64,000 nt of DNA from Halomonas sp. (GTDB lineage Bacteria; Pseudomonadota; Gammaproteobacteria; Pseudomonadales; Halomonadaceae), in assembly GCF_020832045.1 (NCBI RefSeq), contig NZ_JAFIFK010000010.1:62001-126000 (forward strand). Direction: 5' to 3'. Under the pieces are notes generated by a model. That model made no database searches. It was given only the letters and a program-made list of their open reading frames with translations, and was not told the DNA's origin. A program made the translations under genes and the position numbers. Each line of letters starts with the position of its first letter. The stretch's first letter is position 1. This document shows, one piece after another, positions 2,765-59,837 of the stretch.

Positions 2765-2786
2765 GGGCTGATGCTCCACTGAATTT

Positions 2787-2798
2787 CGCCAATTGGCG
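2787..2798. promoter_or_regulatory. Perfect 12-bp palindrome upstream of the NanR-like gene
   Basis: CGCCAATTGGCG lies 23 bp upstream of the regulator start, in the 64-bp gap after the Ldh2-family gene. It is the size of a GntR-type half-site pair and could be an autoregulatory operator, but 12-bp palindromes also arise by chance. Confidence 0.35.
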
Positions 2799-2828
2799 CC
2801 AGTTTACCGTATTTGTCCGGCCCTCCGC

Positions 2829-3905: not shown

Positions 3906-3930
3906 CGCTCTCTTCCCTTGCGTTCGCCTA

Positions 3931-5310
3931 TCAGCGATAGACCAGAGTGGGCAGCCACATGGAGATGGCCGGCACGAAAGTCACCAGCAGCAGGCAGATC
4001 ACCAGTGGGATCAGGAACGGTATCGTGCCCCGCATGCAACGCTCGAAGCTGACGTTGGAAACCCGCGACAGCACATAGAGCACCATGCCCACCGGCGGCG
4101 TCAGCAGGCCGATCATCAGGTTCAGCACCATGATCACGCCGAAGTGCACCGGATCGATGCCTACCGCCATGACCAGAGGCAGCAGGACCGGCACCAGGAT
4201 GGTGATGGCGGCAATGGTTTCCATGAAGCAGCCGACGAGGATCAGCACCAGATTGACCATCATCAGTACCACGACCTTGCTGTCGGAGAAGGGCCCCATC
4301 AGGGCGATGACATGCTGCGTGACCTGGTTGCTGGTGAGGATCCAGGCAAAGATCGAAGCGGCGGCGACGATGAACAGGATCACCGCCGTGGTTTCGATGG
4401 TTTCCATGCTCACCTTGATCAGCTTGCGCCAGGTCAGGGTGCGATAGACCACTACACCCAAGAGCAGGGCATAGAACACGGCGGCCACGGCAGCTTCGGT
4501 GGGAGTAAAGGCACCGGTGATGATGCCCCCGACGATGATCACCGGTGTCATCAGCGAAAGCAGTGCCCGGCCGAAAGTGTGCCCCAGTACACGCACGGAA
4601 AAGACGGCATCGCGCTGATAGCCGCGGCGCCGTGCGATGAGGAAGATCATCAGCATCAGCATGGCGCCCATCAGCAGGCCCGGCAGCAGCCCGGCGGCAA
4701 ACAGCTGACCCACCGAGGTCGACGCCATGACGCCGTAGATCACCATCGGCAGGCTGGGCGGGATGATCGGGCCTATGGTGGACGACGCAGCAGTGATGCC
4801 GACGGCAAACTCCTCATCGTAGCCGGCATCCTTCATGGCCTTTACCTCGATCATGCCTAGGCCGCCGGCATCCGCCACCGCCGCTCCCGACATTCCAGAA
4901 AAGACGATGCTGGCGCCCACGTTGACGTGGCCCAACCCCCCGCGCATCCACCCCATCAGCGCTTTGGCGAAGTTGAAGATGCGCTCGGTGATCCCGGCGT
5001 TGTTCATCAGGCTGCCGGCGAAGATGAAAAAGGGGATGGCCAGCAATGGGAAACTGTCGATGCCGTTGATCATGCGGTGAGCCACGACGATGTCGGGCAC
5101 CTGACCGCTGATCAGCACGAACATCAGACACGAGCCGGCCAGGCTGATGGCGATCGGCACGCCCAGCACCAGCATGGTGAACAGCGAGAAGAACAGAAAG
5201 GAGAGGTAATGTCCCATCACCGCCAGGATCACGCAGCCGAGCACGGCCAGCGCCGAGAGCGTGGGCGTGACGATGGGCTTATGCCAGCGCATCACGGAGA
5301 GTCGAGCCAT
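3931..5310 (-). CDS. dctM: TRAP transporter large permease (DctM)
   Basis: 459 aa inner-membrane protein with about 12 hydrophobic segments, matching the DctM/SiaM family. Typical motifs: an N-terminal LGVPIAISLAGS, PLLAIPFFIFAGSLMNNAGIT, VFSGMSGAAVADAGGLG and SSTIGPIIPPSLPMVIYG, and in the C-terminal half GCFMETIAAITILVPVLLP and LNLMIGLLTPPVG. It carries the ion-coupled transport pathway, probably Na+-driven in a halophile. Order on the minus strand is dctP-dctQ-dctM-ldh2-regulator. ATG at 5310 has GAGG six bases upstream and is preferred over a GTG 12 bp further upstream. Confidence 0.93.
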   Translation of the reverse strand: MARLSVMRWHKPIVTPTLSALAVLGCVILAVMGHYLSFLFFSLFTMLVLGVPIAISLAGSCLMFVLISGQVPDIVVAHRMINGIDSFPLLAIPFFIFAGSLMNNAGITERIFNFAKALMGWMRGGLGHVNVGASIVFSGMSGAAVADAGGLGMIEVKAMKDAGYDEEFAVGITAASSTIGPIIPPSLPMVIYGVMASTSVGQLFAAGLLPGLLMGAMLMLMIFLIARRRGYQRDAVFSVRVLGHTFGRALLSLMTPVIIVGGIITGAFTPTEAAVAAVFYALLLGVVVYRTLTWRKLIKVSMETIETTAVILFIVAAASIFAWILTSNQVTQHVIALMGPFSDSKVVVLMMVNLVLILVGCFMETIAAITILVPVLLPLVMAVGIDPVHFGVIMVLNLMIGLLTPPVGMVLYVLSRVSNVSFERCMRGTIPFLIPLVICLLLVTFVPAISMWLPTLVYR

Positions 5311-5343
5311 GCGTTGCCTCACGAAGGAATCTTGTCGTTGTCG

Positions 5344-5925
5344 TCACTGCGGATCGGGTGGTGCGGGTCGGCAAGAGGCCTGGCGGCGCTCTGCCAGGAT
5401 GCGACCTACCAGCCGCTGCAGCCCCCGCAAGGCCATCAACACGAAGGCCGCGCACACGGCGTAATAGAGCACGCTCTTGGGCACGTCCACGGAGATCATC
5501 ATGCCCCCGGTTCGCCCGCCGAGCTTGAACGTGATCCAGGCGAGCATGGTGTAAAAGGCGATACTGACGGCCTCGACGGCGACATTGAGCAGCCATGACA
5601 GCCAGCCGGGCATGTAGTGGTAGAAGAACTCCACCATGATATGGGTGCCGCGCCGGACCGCCATGACGCTGCCGATGAAACCGACCAGGATCAGCAGATA
5701 GCGAGCGATCTCCTCGGTCCAGGTGGTGGAGTCCCCCAGCACGTAGCGGGTGAAGAACTGCAGGAACACGACGAAGATCAGCGCCCAGAACACAACCAGA
5801 GTGACGTAATCCTCCACGGCGTAGTCGCTGAAGCGGAAGTCGTCGTCATCGAAAGCCAGATGGAAATCGATCTCGGGCTCATGGAACTCGGGGCTCGACG
5901 TCTTGGGAGGGCGGGGATGAGACAT
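5344..5925 (-). CDS. dctQ: TRAP transporter small permease (DctQ)
   Basis: 193 aa with four predicted membrane helices (about residues 40-60, 75-95, 110-135, 150-170), preceded by an acidic cytoplasmic tail of about 37 residues rich in Asp/Glu/Phe. The ARYLLILVGFIGSVMAVRRGTHI block, with the conserved Glu-Glu-x-x-Arg before it (TEEIARY), is characteristic of DctQ. It forms the membrane complex with DctM. It starts 50 bp after dctP, and that gap is filled by a strong GC hairpin (see separate entry). AAGGAGACCCGACCC precedes the ATG. Confidence 0.9.
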   Translation of the reverse strand: MSHPRPPKTSSPEFHEPEIDFHLAFDDDDFRFSDYAVEDYVTLVVFWALIFVVFLQFFTRYVLGDSTTWTEEIARYLLILVGFIGSVMAVRRGTHIMVEFFYHYMPGWLSWLLNVAVEAVSIAFYTMLAWITFKLGGRTGGMMISVDVPKSVLYYAVCAAFVLMALRGLQRLVGRILAERRQASCRPAPPDPQ

Positions 5926-5941
5926 GGGTCGGGTCTCCTTG

Positions 5942-5969
5942 GCATCCCGCCCCGAACGGGGCGGGATGC
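5942..5969 (-). promoter_or_regulatory. Intercistronic hairpin between dctP and dctQ
   Basis: A 13-bp perfect GC-rich stem (arms 5942-5954 and 5957-5969) occupies the dctP-dctQ gap. There is no following T-run, so it is more likely an mRNA-stabilising or partial-termination element that keeps the binding protein more abundant than the permeases, as is common in binding-protein operons. Confidence 0.7.
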
Positions 5970-5975
5970 TTGCCT

Positions 5976-6971
5976 TTACTGGCCGATGGCCTGCAGTCGG
6001 TCGTACGTCTCCTCGTCCCAGGTCGCGGCATCACCCAGGTGGTGGGGCATGACGACCTCACGGAAGGGCTCGCGGTCGACCTGGTTGACCGTGGTACCCT
6101 GCTCCTCGAACCATGCCACCAGGTCCTGCTCGGCCTGAACGATCTCCTCGGTGTTGTTGCGCGCCGCCTCCTCGAACACCTCACGGAAGATCTCGCGGTC
6201 TTCTTCGGAGAGCTGGTTCCAGCGCGGCCCGCCGACGATGGTGATCAATGAATCGGTAATGTGGCCGGTCAGGTTGATGTAATCCTGCACCTCATGGAAC
6301 GCCTTGGCCCGAATGGTGGGCAGCGGATTCTCCTGGGCATCCACCACGCCCTGCTGCAGGGCCAGGTAGACCTCGTCGAAGGCGATCGGTGTCGGATTGG
6401 CGCCCGCGGCGCGGGGGAACATCATGTAGAGCGGTGCATTGGGCACGCGTATGCGCAGGTTGCGCATGTCGTCAGGCGTATTGATCGCCTTGTTGGCGGT
6501 CACGTGGCGCTCGCCGTAATAGTTGAGCGCCAGGGGCACGTTACCGGTGGCATCCTGGTAGCCCTCGGCGATCTCCTGGAAGAGGTCGCTGTCCGCGTAG
6601 GCCTGCCAATGATCGAAGTCGCGGAACATGTAGGCGGCACCGGCAATGCCCATGGGCCCATAGGAGCGACCCGCGAACTGCGTGCCGGTATAAATGACGT
6701 CGATGGTACCGAGCTGGAGCCCCTCGTTGATGTCCTCTTCCTTGCCCAGCGATGACGCGGGGTGAACCTGCATCGTGTAGCGGCCTTCGGTTCGCTGCTC
6801 GATTTCGTCGGCCGCCCACAGCGCCCACTCGTGGAATGGCTCTGAGGTTTCGTAGACATGGGCGAATCGCAGGCTCTGCTGGGCATTCGCCGCCATGCTG
6901 ATGCCCGCCGCCGCAAGGGCAATGACGGTCATGCGCAGGAGCTTGGGCTGGCGTTGGCGCGTGTGGCTCAT
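5976..6971 (-). CDS. dctP: TRAP transporter substrate-binding protein (DctP)
   Basis: 331 aa periplasmic binding protein. N-terminal Sec signal: positive start (RQRQPKLLR), hydrophobic VIALAAAGISMAANA, cleavage after ANA-Q near residue 30. The mature part has DctP hallmarks: the VHPASSLGKEEDINEGLQLG region, LRIRVPNAPLYM with the conserved Arg that pairs with a substrate carboxylate, and GVVDAQENPLPTI. A sugar-acid or hydroxy-acid ligand is expected. It is the first gene of the minus-strand transporter operon, with AAGGAGAATAAG in front of the start and a 200-bp promoter region upstream. Confidence 0.92.
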   Translation of the reverse strand: MSHTRQRQPKLLRMTVIALAAAGISMAANAQQSLRFAHVYETSEPFHEWALWAADEIEQRTEGRYTMQVHPASSLGKEEDINEGLQLGTIDVIYTGTQFAGRSYGPMGIAGAAYMFRDFDHWQAYADSDLFQEIAEGYQDATGNVPLALNYYGERHVTANKAINTPDDMRNLRIRVPNAPLYMMFPRAAGANPTPIAFDEVYLALQQGVVDAQENPLPTIRAKAFHEVQDYINLTGHITDSLITIVGGPRWNQLSEEDREIFREVFEEAARNNTEEIVQAEQDLVAWFEEQGTTVNQVDREPFREVVMPHHLGDAATWDEETYDRLQAIGQ

Positions 6972-7097
6972 CTTATTCTCCTTACAACCTGTCGGTTTAT
7001 TCTGCTTGTCGAGTTAGGGTGCAGGCCTTGGGCAGCAGTGTCGCACCGGGGCGAAGCGTTCCCGCGAACGCTCGGCCCGGCGTCAGACTGTCTTGTT

Positions 7098-7112
7098 GTA
7101 TACGTATCATAC
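7098..7112. promoter_or_regulatory. Candidate operator in the dctP promoter region
   Basis: An AT-rich palindromic patch GTATACGTATCATAC sits about 127 bp upstream of the dctP start in otherwise GC-rich DNA. It includes ATACGTAT (7100-7107) and ends, read on the minus strand, in GGTATG, close to the GGTATA repeat recognised by NanR proteins. It is a plausible site for the NanR-like regulator. The remainder of 6972-7174 shows no gene. Confidence 0.4.
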
Positions 7113-7174
7113 CACCCTGTCCAAACTTAGACGCTCGCCAACATGCACGCAACCGATAATCGCGCCGGCCGGGT

Positions 7175-8383
7175 TCAGGCCCGACGGGCGGGCTCGGGCC
7201 CCGTGATCTCGGCATACAATTGCAGCAGCAGCTCCGGGTCGCCGAAGCCACCTGCCTTGGTCATCACCATGCGCAGCGGCTCGCCGTCGAGGTAGCCCAA
7301 TGCCACTCCGGGGCGCCACTCCGCCACCACCTCGATGAAGCGTCCCCCCAGGCGGCCGAGTGCCGCCATCGCCGTATCACCGCCGGTCAGAAATATCAGC
7401 TGCACGCTCGAGCGCGGCCACTCGGCAACGATTGCCGCTATACGCTCCCCCATCACCCGGGCCACCTCGGCAGGGTTGCGGGTATGACCGTCCTGGTCGC
7501 CAGGTATCAGCAAGCGCTGCGCCGGGGCCGGCTCCGTGGGGGTGTCAGCAGGAGTGGCGCCTGCCGGGAGAACCTCCTCCCAGCCAAGCCCGGGCGCTCC
7601 CTGCCGCAGCCGTCGGCACTGCTCCAGCGCGCGCGGGCTGCGCGAGCCCACCGCATAGAGGCCATGGCGCACGTTGCTCAACCACGGGGCCGAACCATGC
7701 ATCAGCCCAAAACTGCGCCGGGCTGCCTCGCAGGCCAGGCCGGCGGCCCCCACCAGCAGCCAACGCTCCGGCGCGCGTGCAACGGCGTCATAAAGGTGGG
7801 ACAGGTCTTGCTGGGTCGAGGCGTCGACCACAACATGCCCCTGCTCGAACCCGAGGCCCGGTGCGGCACGCCGGCGCGCCATCGTCACCCCCGCCGCGAG
7901 AAAGGCCGCATCCAGCGGTCCCTGCAGGGCGCACGAACGTGCATCGTCCCCGTAGGCGGTATGCGCCAGCGGCTGCCCCTCCACCCATACCTCGGCATCA
8001 CGCACTTCGCGCCCCTGGGCAGGCACGGCGGGAGCCAGCAGCAACTGACGCCCGGTCACGCCAAGCATGGCGATACTCTCCGCCACGACGTGGCCGCGCA
8101 GGGTGGAGTCGATCTTCTTGAACCATATGGCAGGCGAGAGTCGCGCCAGCAGCCGAGTGGCCTGAACGACACGTGCTGCCGCCTCTGGGGCCGGCAGGTG
8201 ACGCGATTCGGTGTTTACCGCAATTACCTGCGGAGCACGCTCCCGCCATGCCTCGAGGCTGCTCGCCAGATGCTCCAGCGCGATCACCACCCGTGTCTGC
8301 GCCCCGCGCGCCGCAAAGGGAGCCGCCGCATCCAGGGCGCCGGTGAGATCGTCAGCGACAATGGCGACCCGGCAGCGGCTCAT
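7175..8383 (-). CDS. Four-carbon acid sugar kinase family protein (DUF1537; D-threonate/erythronate kinase type)
   Basis: 402 aa. The N-terminal half opens with the family signature VAIVADDLTGALDAAAPFA, and an ATP-binding C-terminal half carries FLTGGDTAMAAL, then GVALGYLDGEPLRMVMTKAGGFGD, matching the OtnK/DtnK/LtnK group. These kinases phosphorylate the C4 hydroxyl of four-carbon aldonates. Its start codon overlaps the stop of the PdxA-type gene (ATGA), so the two are translationally coupled; kinase plus PdxA2 is the known pair for D-threonate or D-erythronate degradation to DHAP. Which tetronate is used cannot be read from sequence. Confidence 0.88.
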   Translation of the reverse strand: MSRCRVAIVADDLTGALDAAAPFAARGAQTRVVIALEHLASSLEAWRERAPQVIAVNTESRHLPAPEAAARVVQATRLLARLSPAIWFKKIDSTLRGHVVAESIAMLGVTGRQLLLAPAVPAQGREVRDAEVWVEGQPLAHTAYGDDARSCALQGPLDAAFLAAGVTMARRRAAPGLGFEQGHVVVDASTQQDLSHLYDAVARAPERWLLVGAAGLACEAARRSFGLMHGSAPWLSNVRHGLYAVGSRSPRALEQCRRLRQGAPGLGWEEVLPAGATPADTPTEPAPAQRLLIPGDQDGHTRNPAEVARVMGERIAAIVAEWPRSSVQLIFLTGGDTAMAALGRLGGRFIEVVAEWRPGVALGYLDGEPLRMVMTKAGGFGDPELLLQLYAEITGPEPARRA

Positions 8384-9387
8384 GAGCGTGAGCCCGTGGC
8401 CAGGCGGCGGGCGTAGGCAATGGCTGCCGTCATGTTGGTGGCGTCCGCCCGACCCTGCCAGGCGATATCGAAGGCCGTACCGTGATCGACCGAGGTGCGC
8501 AGGATAGGCAGACCGAGGCTCACGTTGACCGTGGTATCGAAGGCGATCAGTTTCACCGGGATATGGCCCTGGTCATGATACTGGGCCACGACCAGATCGA
8601 ACTCACCACGAGTGGCACGATAGAAGACGCTATCGGCCGAGATCGGCCCTATCACGTCGAAGCCGTGCTGCTGCAGCTGGCGCACCGCCGGGGCAATGAT
8701 GCGCTCGTCCTCGTCGCCGAAGATACCGCCTTCACCGCAGTGGGGGTTGAGGCCGGCCACGGCGATTCGCGGCTGGGATATGCCCATCTTCACCAGATGC
8801 TCGTGCCCCACCTCCACGGTGGCGGCGATACGCGCCTCGCTGACGCGCTCGATCGCCTCGCGCAGAGACACGTGGGTAGAGACATGCAGCGTCGACAGCC
8901 GCTCGGAGGCCAGCAGCATGAACGAGGAGGGCGCCCCGGTGAGCGCCGCCAGCATGCCGGTGTGGCCGTCGTAGTGATGGCCAGCCGCATGCAACGCCGC
9001 CTTGTTCAGCGGTGCGGTGACGATCACCTGCGCACGACCGCTCTGGACCAGCTCCACGGCACGCCTGACGCAGCGAAACGCCAGGTCGCCGCCGGCGGCA
9101 CTGATGCATCCGTCGGGCATGGATTGCGCCTCGAGCGCGTCGACCTCGGCCACGGCCACGCGCCCGTCGCCGGGGCGGGCCTCCTCCAGCGGGGCGAAAT
9201 CGAACGCAGCGCCTACCAGCGCAGCGGCCCGACGATAGATCGCGGCATCCCCCACCAGCAGGAGGCTGTCTCGCTCCCGCTCCGTCATGTCGCCCAGGGC
9301 GCGGCAAATTATCTCCGGGCCGATGCCGGCAGGGTCGCCCATGGTGATGACGAGCTCATAGTCGGGTACGAGCGTTATCTTGCTCAT
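8380..9387 (-). CDS. pdxA2: PdxA2-type 4-phospho-D-threonate/erythronate dehydrogenase
   Basis: 335 aa of the PdxA fold. Motifs: ITMGDPAGIGPEI near the N-terminus, VTAPLNKAALHAAGH and HYDGHTGMLA in the middle, GLNPHCGEGG, and YHDQGHIPVKL near the end; the histidines of these blocks bind the catalytic divalent metal. Paralogues of the pyridoxal pathway enzyme that sit beside DUF1537 kinases oxidise 4-phosphotetronates, followed by decarboxylation to DHAP. Genes upstream and downstream both overlap by ATGA, giving a tight SDR-pdxA2-kinase operon. A true B6-biosynthetic PdxA is normally beside ksgA/surA, which are absent here. Confidence 0.88.
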   Translation of the reverse strand: MSKITLVPDYELVITMGDPAGIGPEIICRALGDMTERERDSLLLVGDAAIYRRAAALVGAAFDFAPLEEARPGDGRVAVAEVDALEAQSMPDGCISAAGGDLAFRCVRRAVELVQSGRAQVIVTAPLNKAALHAAGHHYDGHTGMLAALTGAPSSFMLLASERLSTLHVSTHVSLREAIERVSEARIAATVEVGHEHLVKMGISQPRIAVAGLNPHCGEGGIFGDEDERIIAPAVRQLQQHGFDVIGPISADSVFYRATRGEFDLVVAQYHDQGHIPVKLIAFDTTVNVSLGLPILRTSVDHGTAFDIAWQGRADATNMTAAIAYARRLATGSRS

Positions 9388-10148
9388 GGCATCAACTGGC
9401 CGCCGTTGACCTCGACGATCTGCCCGGTCACGTAGCCGCTCATGCTATCGGTACCGAGGAACACGTAGGCGCCTACGCACTCCTCCGCGACCCCCGTGCG
9501 CCCCATGGGGATGGAAGCGGACACTGCGGCCAGCTGCTCCTCGGTGGAGTGACGCACGTGGAAATCGGTGGCGATGACCCCCGGCGCCACGGCGTTGACA
9601 CGGACGTTGTCGTCCATCAGCTCCTTGGCCATATTGCGGGTCATGGTACTGACGAAACCTTTTGCCGCAGCGTAGAGCCCTGCACCCGGCCCACCGCCAT
9701 TGCGGGCCGCAATCGACGTGGTATGAATGATGTTGCCGCCGCCGGCACGCTTGAAGTGCGGCAGCGCAGCCCGGGAGACCATCACCACCGAGCGCACGTT
9801 GAGGTCCATTACCCGGTCGAAATGCTCGTCGTCTATCTCGGCCAGCGCGACCCGTCCCAGCATATCGCCGGCGTTGTTGATCAACAGATCCAGTCCACCC
9901 AGCTGCTCGGCGGCCTCGTCGACGACACGCCGCGCCTGCTCGGAGCGGCTGACATCGCCCCTGATGACCACGGCCTCCCCGCCTGCCGCCCGTATGTCGC
10001 GGGCCACCGCCTCCGCCGCGTCGGCGCTGGCGTGATAATGCACTGCAACCCGCGCCCCCAGCGCACCGAGCTGGCGCGCCACGGCCGCACCGATACCGCG
10101 GCTGGCCCCGGTGATCAAAACACGCTTTCCCTTCCACTCATCCAACAT
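9384..10148 (-). CDS. SDR family oxidoreductase (candidate 2-keto-3-deoxy-L-fuconate dehydrogenase)
   Basis: 254 aa classical short-chain dehydrogenase. Cofactor motif ITGASRGIGAAVA near residue 15, NNAG (INNAGDMLG), catalytic Ser in HTTSIAA and YAAAK with the Tyr-Lys pair, and the C-terminal GYVTGQIVEVNGG. The absence of an acidic residue after the second strand (HYHASAD) suggests NADP preference. Start ATG 10148 is chosen for its GGGAG upstream. It leads the operon with pdxA2 and kinase and is divergent from fucD. The SDR could therefore either oxidise KD-fuconate for the FAH hydrolase or feed the tetronate branch. Confidence 0.85.
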   Translation of the reverse strand: MLDEWKGKRVLITGASRGIGAAVARQLGALGARVAVHYHASADAAEAVARDIRAAGGEAVVIRGDVSRSEQARRVVDEAAEQLGGLDLLINNAGDMLGRVALAEIDDEHFDRVMDLNVRSVVMVSRAALPHFKRAGGGNIIHTTSIAARNGGGPGAGLYAAAKGFVSTMTRNMAKELMDDNVRVNAVAPGVIATDFHVRHSTEEQLAAVSASIPMGRTGVAEECVGAYVFLGTDSMSGYVTGQIVEVNGGQLMP

Positions 10149-10261
10149 GCCCGCTCCCCTTCGCTGTTCGTCTGTGCCGGCCCACACTCATCGCCTGTCC
10201 ACACTGCCGGTCACGCCTGTCGACCCGGCTTGCGTAGATACGCTAAAGTGAACCGCACTGG

Positions 10262-10299
10262 CATACCTGTCATACATCACGACACATACCATGATAGGT
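10262..10299. promoter_or_regulatory. Candidate shared operator between the SDR operon and fucD
   Basis: In the 208-bp divergent promoter region, ACCTGTCAT (10265-10273) and ATGATAGGT (10291-10299) form an inverted repeat with one mismatch. The block also contains CATACC twice (10262-10267 and 10285-10290) plus CATAC at 10271-10275, i.e. GGTATG-like units on the minus strand, the same unit seen before dctP. A NanR-like regulator could control both directions from here. Confidence 0.4.
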
Positions 10300-10356
10300 G
10301 AGCCCTGGCCAAACGCCAGACCCTCGAAACGCCAGTCCCCCCCGCAAGGAGGCCGC

Positions 10357-11658
10357 ATGACCACTATCACCCGGGTCGAAGTTCAGGATATCCGCTTTCC
10401 CACTTCCCGCTCCCTCGACGGTTCGGATGCCATGAACGCCGCGCCGGACTACTCCGCCACTTACGTGATACTGCACGTTGATGACAATGGCCCGGAGGGG
10501 CACGGCCTCACCTTTACCATCGGCCGTGGCAACGAGATCGTCGTCGCGGCGGTCAATGCCCTGGCCCACCTGGTCGAGAGCCGCACGCTGGCCTCGATCA
10601 CCACCGACATGGGCAGCTTCTGGCGCGAGATCACCGGCGACAGCCAACTGCGCTGGATTGGCCCCGACAAGGGCGCGATCCACCTGGCTACCGCGGCCCT
10701 GGTCAATGCGGTATGGGACCTATGGGCCAAGCGCGAAGGCAAACCCATCTGGAAACTGCTGGTCGACATGTCGCCAGAACAGCTGGTGCGCTGTCTGGAC
10801 TTCCGCTTCGTCACCGACGCTCTCACCCCCGAGGAAGCTATCGCACTACTGCGCAAGCGGAAGGCTGGCAAGGCCGAGCGCGAAGCCGAGATGAAGCGCG
10901 ACGGCTTTCCCGCCTACACCACTTCGGCCGGCTGGCTCGGCTACTCCGACGACAAGGTTCGCCGCCTGGCGCGGAAAGCGCTCGCCGAGGGCTGGACCCA
11001 CTTCAAGCAGAAGATCGGTGGCGATCAGGAGGAAGACGTTCGCCGTGCCGCCCTGCTGCGCGAGGAGATCGGTTGGGACAACGTGCTGATGATGGATGCC
11101 AACCAGGTCTGGGACGTCGACGAAACGATCACCAAGATGCGCCGCCTGGCCGAATTCGATCCGCTGTGGATCGAAGAGCCCACCAGCCCCGACGACATCC
11201 TCGGCCACGCCGAGATTCGCCACCGCGTCGCCCCCATCGGAGTGGCAAGCGGCGAGCATTGCCACAACAAGGTGATGTTCAAGCAGTTCTTCCAGGCCGA
11301 GGCGCTCGACTACTGCCAGCTCGATGCAGCGCGCCTGGGCGGGCTCAACGAGGTAATTCTGGTAGCACTGATGGCCGCCAAGTTCGGCGTGCCGGTCTGC
11401 CCCCATGCCGGTGGCGTTGGGCTGTGTGAATACGTCCAGCACGTCTCACTGTTCGACTATATCGCTGTGGCGGGCAGCTTGGAGGGGCGCGTGCTGGAGT
11501 ATGTCGACCATCTTCACGAACACTTCGTCGACCCGGTAATCATCGAGCAGGGACGTTATCGCGTGCCCGAGGCCCCGGGCTACAGCATTACGATGCACCC
11601 TGAGTCCCTGGTCCGGCACCGCTTCCCGGGTGGCACCGCCTGGCACGAGGAGAGCTGA
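10357..11658 (+). CDS. fucD: L-fuconate dehydratase (enolase superfamily)
   Basis: 433 aa, matching FucD length. Begins with the family-specific VEVQDIRFPTSRSLDGSDAMN. In the barrel the catalytic Lys lies in HFKQKIGG, the Mg ligands in MMDANQVWDV, WIEEPTSPDD and ASGEHCHN, and the catalytic His in CPHAGGVGLCEYVQH. It dehydrates L-fuconate to 2-keto-3-deoxy-L-fuconate. A perfect AAGGAGG six bases before the ATG marks the start. The stop and the next gene's ATG are separated by one base, so fucD and the FAD oxidase are coupled. High confidence in family and likely function. Confidence 0.92.
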   Translation: MTTITRVEVQDIRFPTSRSLDGSDAMNAAPDYSATYVILHVDDNGPEGHGLTFTIGRGNEIVVAAVNALAHLVESRTLASITTDMGSFWREITGDSQLRWIGPDKGAIHLATAALVNAVWDLWAKREGKPIWKLLVDMSPEQLVRCLDFRFVTDALTPEEAIALLRKRKAGKAEREAEMKRDGFPAYTTSAGWLGYSDDKVRRLARKALAEGWTHFKQKIGGDQEEDVRRAALLREEIGWDNVLMMDANQVWDVDETITKMRRLAEFDPLWIEEPTSPDDILGHAEIRHRVAPIGVASGEHCHNKVMFKQFFQAEALDYCQLDAARLGGLNEVILVALMAAKFGVPVCPHAGGVGLCEYVQHVSLFDYIAVAGSLEGRVLEYVDHLHEHFVDPVIIEQGRYRVPEAPGYSITMHPESLVRHRFPGGTAWHEES

Positions 11659-11659
11659 C

Positions 11660-13087
11660 ATGGAGCGAGACGCCTTTCTCGAAGTGCTCGCCGGATGCCT
11701 CGGCGAGCGAGGCCTGCTACGCGAGCCTGAAAGCATGGTCCGCTACGTGTCGGACTGGGCCGGTATCAGGCTCGGCATGCCGCTGGCGGTAGCGCGCCCC
11801 GCCAGCACGGCGGAGGTCGTCGCGACAGTGCGCCTGTGCCGGGAGCACGGCGTGCCCATGGCGCCCCAGGGCGGACACAGCGGCCTGGTGGCTGGCGCCC
11901 TGCCTGCCGCCGAGGGCAACGAACTGGTGATCAGCCTCGAACGCATGAACCGCGTGCGCAGCGTCGATGCGATCAACTTCACCATGAGCGTGGATGCCGG
12001 CTGTATTCTCGACAGCGTCAAGCAGGCCGCGGCGGAGCACGAGTGCGACTTCCCGCTGGCTCTCGGCGCCCAGGGCAGCTGCCAGATCGGTGGCAATGTC
12101 GCCACCAACGCCGGCGGGCTCAACGTGCTGCGCTACGGCATGATGCGCCAGCTGGTGCTCGGCCTCGAAGTGGTACTGCCGGACGGTCGCCTGTGGAGCG
12201 CCATGACCGAGCTGCACAAGGACAATCGCGGCTACGCTCTCAGGCAGCTCTTCCTCGGCAGCGAGGGTACGCTGGGAATTGTCACCGGGGCCGTGCTCAA
12301 GCTCACCCCGCGGGCCGTTCAGTCACGCACAGCGCTGCTCGGCCTGGACTCCCTGGAAGCGGTGATCGAGCTCTACGGCCTCGCCCGGCGCGACTGCAGC
12401 GACCTGCTCAGCGCCTTCGAACTGATTCCGCGGCGCTGCATCGAGCTCGCCATGGAGGCCACCTCCACGCTCAGCGATCCCATGCAGCAGCACTACCCCT
12501 GGTATGTGTTGCTGGAGGTCAGCGCCAGCGGGTCGCTGGATCTCGGCGGCATGCTAGAACACCTGCTGGAGCGAGGCATGGCCCGCAACCTGATACTGGA
12601 CGGTGCCCTGGCCGCCAGCGAGAGCCAGTCGCAACAGCTGTGGCAATTCCGCGAGAGCATGCTGGAGGGCCAGCGCCGCCGCGGCGAGCACCTGCGCACC
12701 GACATATCGGTGCCCATTTCGGCGATCCCGGCCTTCGTCGACGCGGCCAGCCGCCGCATCAGAGAATCCTCGCCCGACTGCGAGATCATCGCCTATGGTC
12801 ACGTCGGCGATGGCAATCTGCATTTCAACGTCCTGCCACCGCCGACAATGCCCGAGGCCGAGAAGTACGATCATCTCCACGCCCTGGAGGTGCAATTGTT
12901 CTCCCTGCTCGACGATTTCGGCGGCAGCATAAGCGCCGAACACGGCATCGGTCGCACCAAGCAACCCGCCTATCTGGCCCGGCTCTCACCGGTAGAGCGC
13001 GAGCTGGTGGTAGGCATCAAGGCGCTGTTCGATCCCGATGACCTGATGAACCCGGGGCGTATCCTGCCGCGGCGGCAGCGAGAGTGA
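11660..13087 (+). CDS. FAD-linked oxidase, GlcD/D-lactate dehydrogenase family
   Basis: 475 aa two-domain flavoprotein of the VAO/PCMH type. The FAD-binding half has MAPQGGHSGLVAGALP and GAQGSCQIGGNVATNAGGLNVLRYG; the C-terminal half has YGHVGDGNLHFNVLPP and the closing SAEHGIGRTK. The family oxidises D-2-hydroxy acids (D-lactate, glycolate, D-2-hydroxyglutarate) and passes electrons to quinone or ETF. Being one base after fucD, it probably handles a hydroxy-acid product or an alternative entry substrate of the sugar-acid pathways. The following 75 bp before dgoD carry no gene. Confidence 0.85.
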   Translation: MERDAFLEVLAGCLGERGLLREPESMVRYVSDWAGIRLGMPLAVARPASTAEVVATVRLCREHGVPMAPQGGHSGLVAGALPAAEGNELVISLERMNRVRSVDAINFTMSVDAGCILDSVKQAAAEHECDFPLALGAQGSCQIGGNVATNAGGLNVLRYGMMRQLVLGLEVVLPDGRLWSAMTELHKDNRGYALRQLFLGSEGTLGIVTGAVLKLTPRAVQSRTALLGLDSLEAVIELYGLARRDCSDLLSAFELIPRRCIELAMEATSTLSDPMQQHYPWYVLLEVSASGSLDLGGMLEHLLERGMARNLILDGALAASESQSQQLWQFRESMLEGQRRRGEHLRTDISVPISAIPAFVDAASRRIRESSPDCEIIAYGHVGDGNLHFNVLPPPTMPEAEKYDHLHALEVQLFSLLDDFGGSISAEHGIGRTKQPAYLARLSPVERELVVGIKALFDPDDLMNPGRILPRRQRE

Positions 13088-13162
13088 CCCGCAGGCCGAC
13101 AGGATACGCCCCCACGCCGACGAAGCCGTATCCCGCGGCCGCATGTACCGAGGAGACCGCTG

Positions 13163-14311
13163 GTGAGAATCACTCGACTCAAGACCTGGCAGGTGCCGCC
13201 ACGCTGGCTGTTCCTCAAGATCGAGACCGACGAGGGCTGCTACGGCTGGGGCGAACCGGTCATTGAGGGGCGCGCCGCCACCGTCGAAGCCGCCGTGCAT
13301 GAGCTTGCCGACTACCTGGTCGGCGAGGATCCGCACCGTATCGAACACCTGTGGAACACGATGTACCGCGCCGGCTTCTATCGCGGCGGCCCGATCCTGA
13401 TGAGCGCCATCGCCGGTATCGACCAGGCGCTGTGGGATCTCAAGGGACGCGACCTCGGGGTGCCGGTGCATCAGCTACTTGGCGGCGCGGTGCGCGAGCG
13501 CATGCGCATGTACGCCTGGACCGGCGGCGACCGGCCAAGCGACGTGGGAGCGGGAGCCAGGGAATTGGTGGAGCGCGGCTTCACCGCCTTCAAGATGAAC
13601 GGCACCGCCGAGATGCAGATCGTCGACTCGCACCGCAAGATCGACGAGGCGGTGGCGCGCGTGGCCGAAGCGCGCGAGGCGGTGGGGCCCGAAGTGGGCA
13701 TCGCTATCGACTTCCACGGCCGGGTGCATCGGCCCATGGCCAAGGCGCTGCTGCGCGAGCTGGAGCCCTACCATCCGATGTTCGTCGAGGAGCCACTAGC
13801 GCCCGAGCATTTGCCGGCACTCAAGCACATTGCCGGGGGCCTGAGTTACCCGCTGGCTACCGGCGAGCGGCTGCACACCCGCTTCGAATTCCGCGACCTA
13901 TTGGCCGCGGGCATGATCGACATCGTGCAGCCCGACCTTTCCCACTGCGGTGGCATCAGCGAGGGGCTGAAGATCGCCACGCTGGCCTCGGCTCACGACG
14001 TGGCCCTCGCGCCGCACTGCCCGCTCGGCCCTCTGACCCTGGCCGCCTCGCTGCAGCTGGATGCGGTGTGCCACAACGCCTTCATCCAGGAGCAGAGCAT
14101 GGGCATTCACTACAACCAGGGCAACGACGTGCTCGACTATCTGGTCGACAAGTCGGTGCTGGCCATTGCGGAGGGCTTCTGTACCATTCCCCAGGGACCG
14201 GGGCTCGGCGTGGAGATCGACGAGGCGTTCGTCGAGGAGCGGGCCAAGGTCGGCCATCGCTGGCGCAACCCGGTATGGCGCCATGAAGACGGCTCCATTG
14301 CCGAGTGGTGA
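13163..14311 (+). CDS. dgoD: D-galactonate dehydratase
   Basis: 382 aa, the same length as E. coli DgoD and close to it throughout. Shared blocks include [54 protein letters not shown] with the metal-binding Asp, [35 protein letters not shown] and the C-terminal GLGVEIDEA. It converts D-galactonate to 2-dehydro-3-deoxy-D-galactonate. GTG start at 13163 follows GAGGAG at the right distance. Head of the dgoD-dgoK-dgoA set; the gene order differs from E. coli, and the aldolase is not fused to the dehydratase. Confidence 0.95.
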
Positions 14312-14322
14312 GGAGAGCGGAC

Positions 14323-15303
14323 ATGAACGGTGAGGTGCATGCACGGCTGGCGTGGGTTGCGGTGGACTGGGGCTCGAGCCATCTGCGCACCTGGGCCATG
14401 GACGCACGGGGCGAGGTATTGGCCCGGGCAGGCAGCGGCATCGGCATGCTGGCCCTGAGCCCGGAACACTACGAGCCCGCGCTGCTCGAGGCGATCGGCG
14501 ACTGGCTGCCGGTATCCGGCCACGTGCCGGTGTGGATCTGCGGCATGGCCGGTGCCCGCCAGGGCTGGCGTGAGGCGGCCTATCTACCGGTGCCGACACG
14601 CCTGGACCAACTGACCCGTGGCGCCGTCGCGCCGACGGTGCGCGACCCGCGCTTGCACGTGCGCCTGCTGCCAGGACTGTGCCAGCATGCCGATGACGCG
14701 GCGCGAGGCTTCGACGTGATGCGCGGCGAGGAGACCCAGTTGGCCGGGCTGGTGGCGCTCGAGCCCGACTTCACGGGGCTGGTCTGCCTGCCAGGCACTC
14801 ACGCCAAGTGGGTCTGGCTCGAGGCGGGCACGGTGATGCGCTTCGCCACTTCGCTCACCGGCGAGCTGTATGCGCTACTGGCCAGCCAGTCGGTGCTCAA
14901 GCATTCGGTGAGCGCAGCCCGGCTCGACGAGCCCGGCTGCAGCGAGGCGTTCGCCACCGCGGTACACGAGGCAGCTACCGACCCCGGACGCTTCAGCCAG
15001 CGGCTGTTCGCCCTGCGCGCCGCCGATCTGCTCGACGACTCGCTGCCCCACGGCCAGGCCAGGCGACTCCACCTGGACGCGCGCCTTTCGGGGCTCGTCA
15101 TTGGCCTGGAGCTGTCCGTCCTTGCCGACGAGCTGAGGCATGACGCCCCCGTCACGCTGATCGGCAGCACGGAGCTCTGCTCCCGCTACGCACTGGCGCT
15201 GGAAGCCCTGGGTTGCAGCAGCCGGCGCTTCGACGGCGAGGCCACGGTGCTGGCCGGCTTGGGTTTGGCCGAAGCCAATTCGCGACACCGCGCCCGTGAC
15301 TGA
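14323..15303 (+). CDS. dgoK: 2-dehydro-3-deoxygalactonokinase
   Basis: 326 aa ASKHA-fold sugar kinase. N-terminal phosphate loop VAVDWGSSHLRTWAMD, MAGARQGWREAAYLPVP, the MRGEETQLAGL block and GLVCLPGTHAKWVWLE are characteristic of DgoK; GSTELCSRYALALEALG near the end matches the family. It phosphorylates 2-keto-3-deoxy-D-galactonate at C6. Somewhat longer than E. coli DgoK (292 aa). Start ATG 14323 has GAGGAG upstream; it begins 11 bp after dgoD and is followed 18 bp later by dgoA. Confidence 0.92.
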   Translation: MNGEVHARLAWVAVDWGSSHLRTWAMDARGEVLARAGSGIGMLALSPEHYEPALLEAIGDWLPVSGHVPVWICGMAGARQGWREAAYLPVPTRLDQLTRGAVAPTVRDPRLHVRLLPGLCQHADDAARGFDVMRGEETQLAGLVALEPDFTGLVCLPGTHAKWVWLEAGTVMRFATSLTGELYALLASQSVLKHSVSAARLDEPGCSEAFATAVHEAATDPGRFSQRLFALRAADLLDDSLPHGQARRLHLDARLSGLVIGLELSVLADELRHDAPVTLIGSTELCSRYALALEALGCSSRRFDGEATVLAGLGLAEANSRHRARD

Positions 15304-15321
15304 CTTACTCAAGGAGAGACC

Positions 15322-15939
15322 ATGAGCCTGCCCCTGATCGCCATTCTGCGCGGCGTCACTCCCGACGAGGCGGTAGCGGTGGGCGAGGCGGTGCTCGCCG
15401 CCGGCATCACTACCCTCGAAGTGCCGCTCAACTCACCCCAGCCCCTGAACAGCATACGCCGCCTGAGCGAAGCGCTGGGCAACCGCGCCCTGGTGGGTGC
15501 CGGCACGGTGCTCACGGAAAGGGAGGTCCATGAGGTCCACGCTGCCGGTGGCCGGCTTGCCGTCTCGCCCAACTGCCGCCCGGCGGTGATCGCGGCGGCC
15601 AGCCGTCTGGGCCTGCAGAGCTGGCCGGGCGTGCTCACGCCCAGCGAGGCCTTCGACGCCCTGGATGCCGGCGCCACCGGGCTCAAGCTCTTTCCCGCCG
15701 TTCAAATGGGCATCGCCGGGATGCAGGCGATGCGCGCCGTGCTGCCCACCGGCACCCTGCTTTACGCCGTAGGGGGTATCGATACCGAAACCATGCCAGC
15801 CTGGCGCGCCGCCGGCATCGACGGCGCCGGCCTGGGCAGCGCCCTCTATCGGCCAGGTCAGACGCCCGAACGGGTCGGCGAACAGGCACGCGCCCTAGTG
15901 GCGGCCTGGAAGGCCGCGAAAAGTGGTGGTTCCAGATAA
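15322..15939 (+). CDS. dgoA: 2-dehydro-3-deoxy-6-phosphogalactonate aldolase
   Basis: 205 aa class I aldolase of the KDPG/KDPGal family. IAILRGVTPDEA at the N-terminus, catalytic Glu in TTLEVPLNSPQPLNSI, GAGTVLT, SPNCRP, and the Schiff-base lysine in GLKLFPA. The ending VGGIDTETMPAW plus GAGLGSALY is the KDPGal rather than KDPG pattern. It cleaves the product of DgoK to pyruvate and glyceraldehyde-3-phosphate, completing D-galactonate breakdown. AAGGAGAGACC precedes the start. A hairpin begins seven bases after the stop. Confidence 0.93.
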   Translation: MSLPLIAILRGVTPDEAVAVGEAVLAAGITTLEVPLNSPQPLNSIRRLSEALGNRALVGAGTVLTEREVHEVHAAGGRLAVSPNCRPAVIAAASRLGLQSWPGVLTPSEAFDALDAGATGLKLFPAVQMGIAGMQAMRAVLPTGTLLYAVGGIDTETMPAWRAAGIDGAGLGSALYRPGQTPERVGEQARALVAAWKAAKSGGSR

Positions 15940-23905: not shown

Positions 23906-24562
23906 TCACTGGGCAGCGACGCCGTAGCGCGCACGATAGTCGCGTATGGCGGCCGCGTGACCCTGTAGTTCTTCGCTCGACTGCTGCTCGAGATAGGCCA
24001 GCACCATGTTCAGCGTGACGATGCTGATCACCGGCATGTCGTAGCGTGCCTCGACCTCCTGGATGGCGCTCTGCGCACCCTCGCCGCGCTCCTGGCGGTC
24101 GAGAGCGATGACCACGCCTGCGGCGTCGGCACCGGCAGCCTCGATCAGCGACATCACTTCACGGATGGCGGTACCTGCGGTGATCACGTCATCGATGATC
24201 AGGATACGCCCGGCAAGCTCGGCGCCGACGATGTTACCCCCTTCGCCGTGCGCTTTCGCCTCCTTGCGGTTGAAGGCGAAGGGCAGATCGCGCCCGTGAT
24301 GATCGGCCAGCGCCACCGCAGCGGTCGCGGCAAGGGGAATGCCCTTGTAGGCCGGTCCGAACAGCACGTCGAACGCTAGTCCGCTTGACTCGATGGCATT
24401 GGCGTAGAAACGGCCGAGGCGAGCCAGCGCACTGCCGGTGCGAAACAGGCCGGCATTGAAAAAGTAGGGGCTGACGCGGCCAGACTTGAGGGTGAACTCG
24501 CCGAACTTCAGCACGCCCTGGTCGATTGCGAACTCGATGAATTCTCGCTGATAGGCTTTCAT
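23906..24562 (-). CDS. pyrE: Orotate phosphoribosyltransferase
   Basis: 218 aa, normal length (E. coli 213). [25 protein letters not shown] opens the enzyme, [10 protein letters not shown] binds the base, [13 protein letters not shown] is the flexible catalytic loop, and [16 protein letters not shown] is the PRPP-binding motif. It makes OMP in pyrimidine synthesis. Divergent from the crc-like gene, as in Pseudomonas. A GTG four codons upstream (24574) has a better-placed GGGGAG and may be the true start. Confidence 0.95.
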
Positions 24563-24706
24563 GCTGGCCGTCACGGCGCTCCCCCTGCTATCCATAAGCC
24601 CTATGGCATGGAATCCTGGCGTATTAACACGAATATCCATGCGGGCCATTTACCCAAACGTCGAAACGTCGGGTATCATACACGCGCGACGTCAAAGGGA
24701 CCATGT

Positions 24707-25474
24707 ATGAAAATTGCCACCATCAATGTCAACGGCATTCGTGAAGCCGTCGGACGAGGTTTTCTCGACTGGCTGGCGGAACAGGATGCCGACGTCATTT
24801 GCGTACAAAACCTCAAGGCCAAGAGCTTCGAGCTGGATGACAGCATCCTCTACCCGGAAGGCTACGAAGGCTACTTCCTGGATGCCGAAGAAGACGGCTT
24901 CTCCGGCGTAGGCATCTACTGCCGCAAGATTCCCAAGGCGATCATGTACGGCCTCGGTTTTCCCCAGTGCGATCACGAGGCGCGCTTCCTGCAGGCCGAC
25001 TATGACCGCTTCAGCATTGCCAGCTTCCTGATGCCCGACGGTAGCGACTATGCCGCCAAGCAGGCGTTCATGGCCCAGTATCAGGAATACCTGAACAAGA
25101 TGGCCCGCAAGCGTCGCGAGTACATCATCTGCGGTACCTGGCACATCGCTCACAAGACCATCGACCTGGAAAACTGGGCCGACAACCAAACCACGCCTGG
25201 CTTCAAGCCCGAAGAGCGCGCCTGGATGGACCAGGTGTTCGGCCCCACAGGCTTCATCGACACCTTCCGCGAGATCAACCGCGACGCCGGCGAATATACC
25301 TGGTGGCCCAAGCTCGAGCAGGACGAGCCGCGTTCACGTCAGGAAGGTTGGCGTATCGATTATCAGATCGTCGGGCCCAACCTGCGCCGCCACGTGGTCG
25401 ATGCCTGGATCGACTACGACGCCACCTTCAGCGAGTTCGCTCCGCTGTTTGTCGAGTACGATCTTACGCTCTGA
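24707..25474 (+). CDS. crc: Crc-type catabolite repression control protein (degenerate ExoIII fold)
   Basis: 255 aa with the endonuclease/exonuclease/phosphatase fold of ExoIII. Start MKIATINVNGIR and the GWRIDYQIVGPNLRR block keep the fold, but most catalytic residues are replaced: the metal-binding Glu is Asn35 (ICVQNLKA), the Asp and Asn of the GDxN motif are Thr144 and His146 (CGTWHIAHK), and the C-terminal Asp-His is Glu243-Phe244 (FSEFAP); only Asp218 remains. This is the pattern of Pseudomonas Crc, which works with Hfq to repress catabolic mRNAs and has no nuclease activity. The pyrE-crc-rph neighbourhood is the same as in Pseudomonas. I infer a Crc orthologue; exonuclease activity is unlikely. 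Confidence 0.85.
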   Translation: MKIATINVNGIREAVGRGFLDWLAEQDADVICVQNLKAKSFELDDSILYPEGYEGYFLDAEEDGFSGVGIYCRKIPKAIMYGLGFPQCDHEARFLQADYDRFSIASFLMPDGSDYAAKQAFMAQYQEYLNKMARKRREYIICGTWHIAHKTIDLENWADNQTTPGFKPEERAWMDQVFGPTGFIDTFREINRDAGEYTWWPKLEQDEPRSRQEGWRIDYQIVGPNLRRHVVDAWIDYDATFSEFAPLFVEYDLTL

Positions 25475-25624: not shown

Positions 25625-26362
25625 TTAGCGACGAATGCCCAGGGCCTCGCGCTGGTGCTCGAAGAGCTGGGCCCCGGCGTTCTCGGCCAGCTCCAGCATG
25701 GCGTTGAGCTCTTCCCGCGAGAACACGCCCGTCTCGGCGGTGCCCTGCACTTCGATCAACCCACCCGATTCGGCCATCACCACGTTCATGTCGGTTCCCG
25801 CGGCGCTGTCTTCCGGATAGTCGAGATCTACCACCGGAACGCCCTTGTAAACCCCTACCGACACCGAACTGACCAGCTGCTGGAAAGGGTCGCCCTTGAT
25901 CAGCTTCTTGCGCTGCAGGTAGCGAATGGCATCTATCAGTGCCACACATCCACCGGTGATCGAGGCGGTACGAGTGCCGCCATCGGCCTGAATGACATCA
26001 CAGTCCACGGTGATGGTGAATTCGCCCAGCTTCTTCAGGTTTACCGCGGCACGCAGCGAGCGACCGATCAATCGTTGGATCTCCAAGGTGCGACCGCCCT
26101 GCTTGCCATGCGATGCCTCACGGCCGCTGCGGGTATGCGTGGCGCGTGGCAGCATGCCATATTCGGCGGTGACCCAGCCCTGCCCCTTGCCGCGCAGCCA
26201 GCGCGGCACGCCGGCTTCGACGCTGGCATTGCACAACACCTTGGTGTCGCCAAACTCCACCAGTACCGAGCCCTCGGCGTGGCGGGTATATTCGCGTGTC
26301 AGACGAATCTCGCGGGGCTGGTCGGGGCGCCGTCCGCTCGGGCGTTTCAGGTCGGAAGCCAT
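25625..26362 (-). CDS. rph: Ribonuclease PH
   Basis: 245 aa phosphorolytic 3-prime exoribonuclease. Start [19 protein letters not shown], then [76 protein letters not shown] and [19 protein letters not shown] are all conserved. It trims tRNA 3-prime ends and degrades structured RNA using phosphate. Full length, with no frameshift of the kind found in E. coli K-12. Divergent from yicC with a 175-bp promoter region. Confidence 0.96.
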
Positions 26363-26537: not shown

Positions 26538-27416
26538 ATGGTTGACCAAAGCAAGGTTCACAGCATGACCGCTTTTGCCCGCCAGAGTCGGGAAGACGAC
26601 TGGGGCAGCCTGCAGCTGGAACTGCGCTCGGTGAATCAGCGCTATCTGGAACCTTTCTTCCGCCTGCCCGAGGCTTTGCGCGACCTTGAGCCCGCCTTTC
26701 GTGAGGCACTGCGTACGCGTCTGACGCGGGGCAAGGTGGAGTGTCACCTGCGCTTCGAGCCCACCGACGCCAGCGAAACTCTAGCCGTCAATCGCTCCCG
26801 ACTGGTCGCCCTGGCCGCGGCACTGGGTGAGATCCGCGAGGCACTGCCTCAAGTTGCCATGCCGGATGCGCTCTCGCTACTGGAGCATCCCGGCGTGCTC
26901 GAATCACAGGGCATCGACCTCGATCTGGTGAAAGCGGAGGCAACGGCACTGTTTCAGGCCGCCCTCGACGAGCTGATCGATGCCCGCGCTCGCGAAGGCG
27001 ACAAGCTCGCCGTGATGATTTGCGAGCGCCTGAGCGGCGTACGCGAGCAGATCGCCGAGGTGCGGCGGCTGATGCCGACCATTCTAGAGCGTCAGCGCAC
27101 TCTGCTGTTGGAGCGCCTGGAGACGGTCAAGGCGGAGCTCGACCCTCAGCGCCTTGAAGGCGAGCTGGTACTGCTCGCTCAGAAAGCCGACGTCGACGAG
27201 GAGCTCGATCGGCTCGAGGCCCATGTCAGCGAAGTGGAACGTCAGCTCGGTCAGAATGGCCCCAAGGGGCGCCGGCTCGACTTCCTGATGCAGGAGCTGA
27301 ACCGCGAGGCCAACACGCTTTCGTCCAAGTCGGCGGTGGCCAGCACGACCCGCTGTGCGGTGGAACTCAAGGTGCTGATCGAACAGATGCGGGAACAGAT
27401 CCAGAACATCGAGTGA
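26538..27416 (+). CDS. yicC: YicC-family endoribonuclease
   Basis: 292 aa. N-terminal SMTAFARQSREDDWGSLQLELRSVNQRYLEPFFRLPE and the C-terminal DUF1732 block GRRLDFLMQELNREANTLSSKS are the family hallmarks; the middle is helical. E. coli YicC is a hexameric endoribonuclease implicated in small-RNA turnover. Starts after GAGGGATCCACG. In Pseudomonas gmk follows directly; here a GNAT gene on the opposite strand and about 880 bp intervene. Confidence 0.93.
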   Translation: MVDQSKVHSMTAFARQSREDDWGSLQLELRSVNQRYLEPFFRLPEALRDLEPAFREALRTRLTRGKVECHLRFEPTDASETLAVNRSRLVALAAALGEIREALPQVAMPDALSLLEHPGVLESQGIDLDLVKAEATALFQAALDELIDARAREGDKLAVMICERLSGVREQIAEVRRLMPTILERQRTLLLERLETVKAELDPQRLEGELVLLAQKADVDEELDRLEAHVSEVERQLGQNGPKGRRLDFLMQELNREANTLSSKSAVASTTRCAVELKVLIEQMREQIQNIE

Positions 27417-46840: not shown

Positions 46841-47035
46841 ACAGCCCTCCTGGTATTGGCTATATCCCGGCGAAAGTGCCGGTCTTTTGTTATTCACGTT
46901 CGAATCAAGTTGGTGACGCCTGTCACTCTCCCGGGAGAGCCCGTTCCCTTGTCTGGATCTTCCCCTGCTCCTGGAGCGGCAAGCGTGGCGGTCATCGCGC
47001 GTCGAGCTGTCAAGCCGGCCGAAACGATGACGACA

Positions 47036-59684: not shown

Positions 59685-59837
59685 AATGGACTCCTTACGG
59701 GTGCCAGGCAGCATATCGCTCAGGCGCGGCTCGCTGCAGCGCTGGTGAGGGCAGAGCTTGGCGTATAAGATGGCGCTCTGCTATCGCTGCAACGCAATAC
59801 CGCCACCCACAACAACAAGCCGAGCTTACGACATTCC

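Follow-up and report, generated by a model that had tools for sequence, protein, structure and literature searches.

The nearest described counterpart of the gene studied here is that for Crc of Pseudomonas, for which structures are available (4jg3, and 6o1k for the Hfq/Crc/amiE complex). Milojevic et al. 2013, in the part available to us, report that P. aeruginosa Crc retains only two of the four catalytic residues and that no nuclease activity was detected (PMC3662782), and the accessible part of Pei et al. 2019 names the residues of Crc that contact RNA and the partner Crc, with R140, R141 and E142 as RNA-contact and dimer residues and R229 and R230 as a dimer salt bridge (PMC6422490). In Pseudomonas, the CrcZ RNA (Rfam RF01675) lies between cbrB and pcnB, and, according to an excerpt of a 2022 review, the order cbrA-cbrB-crcZ occurs in Pseudomonadaceae alone (PMC8871633). 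A Crc with a role in catabolite repression has been described outside Pseudomonas, in Acinetobacter (PMC8312277, in the part available). In the same fold family, the closest solved structure with an intact set of residues is that of Neisseria NApe, E. coli XthA being a more remote enzyme. Halomonas strains serve as production hosts. No description of carbon-source ranking by Halomonas through a Crc/CrcZ route, and no report on Crc, CrcZ or CbrAB in Halomonadaceae, was found among the literature matches listed, whose coverage mostly leaves out subscription papers; the available part of one PHA review mentions both subjects, Halomonas solely in its reference list (PMC9049629).

The window, that is, the whole stretch of 64,000 nucleotides analysed, comes from a Halomonadaceae genome of 4.08 Mb in 102 contigs (99.85% complete), and its features are collected in the table below. 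We consider, with a probability of about 0.85, that the gene under study encodes Crc, a non-enzymatic partner of Hfq in a carbon catabolite repression circuit of the CbrAB/CrcZ type. The reading frame is open from its ATG, and the Halomonadaceae rows of the alignment share the same start methionine. A domain scan places the product in the exonuclease/endonuclease/phosphatase family, and both NCBIfam models for exodeoxyribonuclease III, TIGR00633 and TIGR00195, score above their curated cut-offs. Both are equivalog models and give this catalytically dead protein an ExoIII name, which constitutes an annotation trap. The solved structures nearest by sequence are those of Crc and not of active ExoIII: the top relative, 2myi (E 7e-76), was deposited as exodeoxyribonuclease III, but its sequence is nearly that of P. 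aeruginosa Crc and we read it as a Pseudomonas Crc, followed by P. aeruginosa Crc 4jg3 (E 1.9e-74), Neisseria NApe 2jc5 (E 1.3e-62) and, far behind, E. coli XthA 1ako (E 2.4e-12). Scanning genome contigs gave 489 confirmed relatives; the best 80 of these all belong to Halomonas or related genera, at 89-98% identity.

Features of the window discussed in the text, with coordinates counted from its first nucleotide
Feature	Position	Strand	Basis
pyrE, divergent neighbour of crc	23906..24649	-	neighbour reading
crc, ExoIII-fold protein of 255 aa with degenerate active site	24707..25474	+	ORF, profile, structure-relative and tree evidence
Codon 35 Asn, for Glu34 of E. coli XthA	24809..24811	+	alignment
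Codon 108 Leu, for Tyr109 of E. coli XthA	25028..25030	+	alignment
Codons 136-138 Arg-Arg-Glu, equivalent to R140 R141 E142 of P. aeruginosa Crc	25112..25120	+	alignment; PMC6422490 (in part)
Codons 144-146 Thr-Trp-His, for Asp151-Met-Asn153 of E. coli XthA	25136..25144	+	alignment
Codons 189-192, Glu189 and Arg192 equivalent to E193 and R196 of P. aeruginosa Crc	25271..25282	+	alignment; PMC6422490 (in part)
Codons 227-228 Arg-Arg, equivalent to R229 R230 of P. aeruginosa Crc	25385..25390	+	alignment; PMC6422490 (in part)
Codons 243-244 Glu-Phe, for Asp258-His259 of E. coli XthA	25433..25438	+	alignment
rph, convergent neighbour of crc	25625..26362	-	neighbour reading
yicC	26538..27416	+	neighbour reading
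AATAACAA, weak candidate site 54 nt before start of 92-aa gene (46840, -; HU/IHF-type by eye)	46887..46894	-	motif scan
AACAACAA, candidate Hfq/Crc site 27 nt before start of thioesterase-family gene (59838)	59811..59818	+	motif scan, Pfam

In order to compare the active site, eight columns were read, for which three sequences guided the numbering (P. aeruginosa Crc, Neisseria NApe and E. coli XthA). Intact enzymes, NApe and XthA included, read NEYDNDDH, P. aeruginosa Crc reads NDLSYDQH and the window protein NNLTHDEF. Six of the eight positions are thus replaced in the latter, which keeps Asn7 and Asp218 (D229 of E. coli XthA) and none of the set E34, Y109, D151, N153, D258 and H259; judged from these residues, its ExoIII active site is lost. 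P. aeruginosa Crc has five of the same columns changed (D, L, S, Y, Q) and keeps Asn7, Asp220 and His246. The five replacements listed in the preliminary description (Asn35, Thr144, His146, Glu243 and Phe244) all agree with the alignment, although a sixth, Leu108, had been overlooked, and its statement that the site is even more degraded than in Pseudomonas holds by one residue only, the Phe found in place of His246; at the Glu34 site the window protein also differs from Pseudomonas Crc, with Asn and not Asp. The degenerate site is shared by all 92 Halomonadaceae loci compared, two partly overlapping sets that include the window itself, and by 12 further members from other Halomonadaceae genera, yet Phe is not universal in the last column (F in 67, Y in 22 and H in 3 of the 92). 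A residual or altered nuclease or phosphatase working with unusual residues would agree with the fold family and with the retained Asn7 and Asp218, but it is hardly to be expected when the equivalents of Glu34, Tyr109, Asp151, Asn153, Asp258 and His259 are all replaced and when the less-changed P. aeruginosa Crc gave no nuclease activity, according to the available part of the report (PMC3662782). The genome carries, on contig C20, a second gene of this type, an XthA with all eight residues intact, and the window protein is therefore not its only ExoIII relative.

Relatives were searched in 293 genomes of the order and found in 280, and the copies read, mostly the best match of a genome, represent 41 of 47 family codes. 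Maximum likelihood on 92 rows groups the 57 degenerate ones, which include Pseudomonas Crc, in a single clade (support 100/100) that contains none of the 35 intact rows. The same division, 53 against 32 rows with support 100/99, was obtained from 85 rows after dropping seven long rows and removing the interface columns and the active-site columns plus or minus two. Since P. aeruginosa Crc falls within f21, this family code was taken as the Pseudomonas-type family. Because all degenerate copies read cluster with Pseudomonas Crc, apart from intact ExoIII, even when the active-site and interface columns are left out, the window gene is, by its phylogeny, a Crc orthologue, and the identity proposed in the preliminary description is borne out. 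Its description as a Crc outside Pseudomonas likewise holds, but is not new as such given the Acinetobacter protein (PMC8312277, in the part available). Degenerate copies were found in 26 of the 41 family codes, the other 15 having intact copies only, among those read. A pseudo-exonuclease that is inert or repurposed, retained because it binds DNA or RNA in a role apart from catabolite repression, would also have lost its active site and would carry the ExoIII name given by NCBIfam; we regard it as very improbable, since the protein falls in one clade with Pseudomonas Crc and the other parts of the circuit are encoded in the same genome.

The order pyrE-crc-rph, which had been taken as evidence for Crc, is indeed present, and among 80 named Halomonadaceae loci the fetched stretch contains pyrE in 80, rph in 79 and yicC in 77. 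However, the same site is occupied by intact ExoIII genes in other families (L201, L213, L214, L217 and L235, of f17, f22, f26 and f29), and synteny was rejected as proof or marker of Crc. The intact copies fit an active enzyme at the pyrE-rph site that lost catalysis once.

Among the interface residues named for P. aeruginosa Crc (PMC6422490, in the part available, whose numbering is used here), the window protein keeps R138, K139, R140, R141, E142, W161, E193, R196, R229 and R230 and changes six positions, R137A, K155T, M156, R162A, F231H and R233V. Over the 92 Halomonadaceae loci, R140, R141, E193 and R196 are found in all, E142 in 89, R229 in 89 and R230 in 90, and the 12 further members of other genera all have E193 and R196, with R229 in five and Gln at that position in seven. 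The trio R140-R141-E142 occurs as well in eight of 36 intact ExoIII rows, from which we infer that this motif predates Crc, and KRRE was rejected as a Crc signature for the same reason. An Arg equivalent to R196 is present in none of the 36 intact rows and is also missing from most other degenerate families; NApe and XthA have equivalents of neither R196 nor R229/R230. In the alignment compared, the full set E193-R196-R229-R230 is restricted to Halomonadaceae (87 of 92) and Pseudomonas-type rows. Pseudomonas Crc and the window protein resemble each other in clade, pyrE-rph site, dead ExoIII fold, KRRE, E193/R196 and R229/R230.

The remaining components of the putative circuit were sought in the same genome. 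It encodes an Hfq (E 2.6e-40 to that of P. aeruginosa) with identical residues I30, K31, L32, Q33, Q52 and T61 and with the distal-face Tyr25 replaced by Phe. On contig C57 the gene order is cbrA, cbrB, an RNA gene and pcnB, as in the known system. Over their full length, CbrA (985 aa) shares 49-51% and CbrB (462 aa) 64% identity with the CrcZ-adjacent pair of two Pseudomonas-type genomes. HisKA/HATPase and Sigma54_activat domains were found in CbrA and CbrB, the sigma54-activation domain in CbrB, and no SLC5-type Pfam domain was matched in CbrA at the cut-off used. Here the pair stands outside Pseudomonadaceae, and some Halomonadaceae loci (L097, L317, L318, L320 and L321) keep the CrcZ-type RNA at pcnB with no cbrB in the stretch read.

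The Rfam CrcZ model RF01675, with matches admitted up to E 10, found none in this genome. Across the order it matches 59 of 293 genomes, 14 of them above cut-off, and of 12 Halomonadaceae genomes one (G176) weakly, at 22.3 bits. As weak matches elsewhere lay between a cbrB-like gene and pcnB, the corresponding interval of the Halomonas genome was inspected, and a predicted gene for a CrcZ-like RNA, of the kind that the preliminary description proposed to look for, was found there. This gene has a sigma54 -24/-12 box, TGGCACATGCCGTGCA (GG-N10-GC), an A-rich run and, as terminator, a GC-rich hairpin followed by T, with pcnB next. The motif AANAANAA occurs in it 11 times in sense and once in antisense, which makes this stretch the densest per 500 nt (11 against 6 for the next) in the 477 kb of the genome read. 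In all of 30 other Halomonadaceae loci, drawn from 91 genomes with pcnB, 13-26 sense and 0-4 antisense motifs precede pcnB, against 11-16 in ten Pseudomonas-type loci (L086-L095); a cbrB tail was recognised in 29 of the 30 and the strict sigma54 pattern in 25. Likeness to CrcZ lies in position, box, many A-rich motifs and terminator, whereas the 3' domain of the Halomonas RNA, with TTGTTTTGAATACGA and a helix of 16+6 bp, is particular to it. TTGTTTTGAATACGA is found without a mismatch in 32 of 32 loci; of six more loci, chosen for a weak or no model match, one has it unchanged, two have it with a single base different and three lack it. A covariance model of the 3' domain, built from 23 sequences, has a single match in each of 89 of the 92 Halomonadaceae genomes. 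The helix has 98.8% of cells paired, as opposed to at most 46% when slid, and both-side changes are confined to three pairs, so that covariation support is modest. Of the three genomes that the model does not match, two carry 10-11 motifs ahead of pcnB; the third, G310, lacks them there, yet retains Crc. CrcZ-type RNAs at pcnB were seen in f1, f2, f8, f20, f21, f35, f38 and f44. This genome speaks against the restriction of cbrA-cbrB-crcZ to Pseudomonadaceae given in the excerpt of the 2022 review (PMC8871633) and, as far as gene content indicates, the switch is probably more widespread than stated there. Six motifs near 45.7 kb of C46 form another A-rich cluster, which was rejected as a CrcY copy, being antisense to a small ORF, with PAAR-type genes beside it (by eye) and no sigma54 box seen before the cluster.

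Candidate targets were searched in 477 kb with 418 script-called genes (C20, parts of C21, C39, C46 and C57, and the window). Within -86..+26 of 416 starts, AANAANAA occurs 15 times in sense and four times in antisense; among the 28 placements of two N in A6N2 it has the most sense matches and ranks third by share of all its own sites. In its AAYAAYAA form the bias is eight to none, the next best giving four to one. Four A-R-N triplets plus A-R were discarded as target pattern, with one sense and two antisense matches in -30..+26, and among the patterns tried only the AANAANAA/AAYAAYAA form is sense-biased at starts. AAYAAYAA has 170 sites in the genome, and context is known for 85, namely the first 30 listed (100 of the 170 being listed), those in the 477 kb and hand-picked stretches. 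These 85 comprise 36 sense and two antisense sites near a start (-75..+12), seven in the RNA gene, 13 sense and six antisense sites inside genes, and 21 elsewhere; two of the 36 (on C89 and C74) were read because they precede paralogues of a target. The 36 sites belong to 31 genes, of which 30 were scanned against Pfam. By raw tally 13 encode transport proteins, i.e. four Peripla_BP_6, two DctP, and one each of DctQ, SBP_bac_1, SBP_bac_5, ABC ATPase, LamB, TonB receptor and MFS protein; DUF4212, two AMP-binding enzymes, an enoyl-CoA hydratase, a urate oxidase, an aminotransferase, a CCG-domain protein and others were also found, and five had no family at the cut-off. The leader of a substrate-binding-protein gene (C39:31566) carries the motif as AACAATAA. 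In the leaders of the Halomonadaceae homologues of one substrate-binding protein, AANAANAA is present in sense in 19 of 30 and in antisense in none (4 of the 9 closest, at 82-100%, and 15 of the 21 at 49-52%), and among 364 starts of six housekeeping genes, namely crc, pyrE, rph, yicC, gmk and pcnB, it is found in sense in none and in antisense in six, although homologous loci share ancestry and neither set of counts represents independent trials.

A transport and sugar-acid catabolism cluster, with TRAP transporter, dehydratase-like, kinase and aldolase-like genes by eye, occupies positions 2048-15939 of the window. The preliminary description had regarded it as a possible target of Crc, and this part of its proposal fails, given that AANAANAA is missing from both strands of positions 1-15937; the motif search that it suggested at catabolic starts does reveal sense-biased motifs before genes, 13 of the 30 scanned being for transport, only elsewhere than in this cluster. 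The window as a whole has seven AANAANAA, against a mean of 3.8 in shuffled sequences, and 10 of 100 shuffles reach seven, which is not clearly above chance; its sole candidate target genes are the thioesterase-family gene and the gene for 92 aa given in the table.

The genome sequence itself provides a Crc orthologue without its catalytic residues, Hfq, CbrAB, an RNA gene with box, motifs and terminator, and motifs before candidate target genes; binding, repression, titration and the signal in Halomonas are proposed by analogy with Pseudomonas. Hfq would bind A-rich (ARN/AANAANAA) stretches at or near the ribosome-binding sites of transport and catabolic mRNAs, and Crc dimers would clamp onto the face of Hfq with its RNA and hold the mRNA in repression. 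Once good carbon sources are exhausted, the sensor CbrA and the sigma54 activator CbrB would turn on the CrcZ-type RNA, whose many A-rich motifs may then titrate Hfq/Crc and free the targets. The suggestion that Crc/Hfq repression operates in this lineage can accordingly be kept as a prediction resting on the Crc tree, Hfq, CbrA/CbrB, the CrcZ-type RNA and the motifs at starts, and no longer on synteny or on the catabolic cluster.

Several observations count against this circuit: the changed interface residues, the Gln at R229 in seven of the 12 members of other genera, the Phe at Tyr25 of Hfq, the occurrence of R140-R141-E142 in eight of 36 intact ExoIII rows, the silence of the RNA model in three of 92 genomes, an f44 RNA locus accompanied by an intact ExoIII as the one relative read, and the motif in only four of the nine closest target homologues. 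Hfq and the CrcZ-type RNA might carry the switch alone, the Crc of Halomonadaceae having lost importance or taken on another function, such as that of another Hfq-RNA scaffold or a structural one. The RNA binder in P. aeruginosa is Hfq (PMC5815094, in the part available), the six interface differences would be understandable, and in f44 (G183) an RNA locus was found and no degenerate Crc seen. For L100 (G183, f44) and L240, a cbrB-RNA-pcnB locus with sigma54 box and 23 A-rich motifs was seen in a genome in which, of two ExoIII-type matches, the one read is intact; a version of the switch based on Hfq only is possible in f44. For Halomonadaceae we nevertheless consider such a drift of Crc unlikely, as Crc was found in every genome searched (12 of 12 at 73-100% identity and 13 of 13 at 63-89%), including the three without RNA-model match, and all copies of both sets compared (92 of 92 and 12 of 12) have E193 and R196.

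Under the preferred reading, with Crc as the Hfq partner, this Halomonas genome is predicted to encode every part of a post-transcriptional switch, with target leaders that can be named. The switch would be a known system in a family for which the searched literature gives no description, with a form of CrcZ that the standard model misses. On balance we lean towards a wider interpretation, in which the CbrAB-CrcZ-Hfq-Crc switch is ancient in a large part of the order and not a speciality of Pseudomonadaceae. The ExoIII at the pyrE-rph site would have lost catalysis once and become Crc (26 of 41 family codes, one clade), a one-time change from enzyme to regulator that has support in the tree. 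The former active site would then have drifted freely (NDLSYDQH, NNLTHDEF, SDLNQDSH, etc.), and CrcZ may evolve too fast for homology searches while remaining recognisable by its place, sigma54 box and motif density.

Three further observations were made. A PAAR-like protein, by eye of the type VI secretion tip type, is encoded at positions 52412-53290 (-) of the window. On contig C39 (28204-36146, L285), a cluster for a branched-chain-type ABC importer and a UPF0261 protein has AAYAAYAA before four gene starts. L105 (G259, f38) has tandem CrcZ-like RNAs before pcnB, at 4977-5079 and 5611-5719, with sigma54-type boxes at -1090 and -459, and both RNAs are weakly matched by the Halomonadaceae 3'-domain model.
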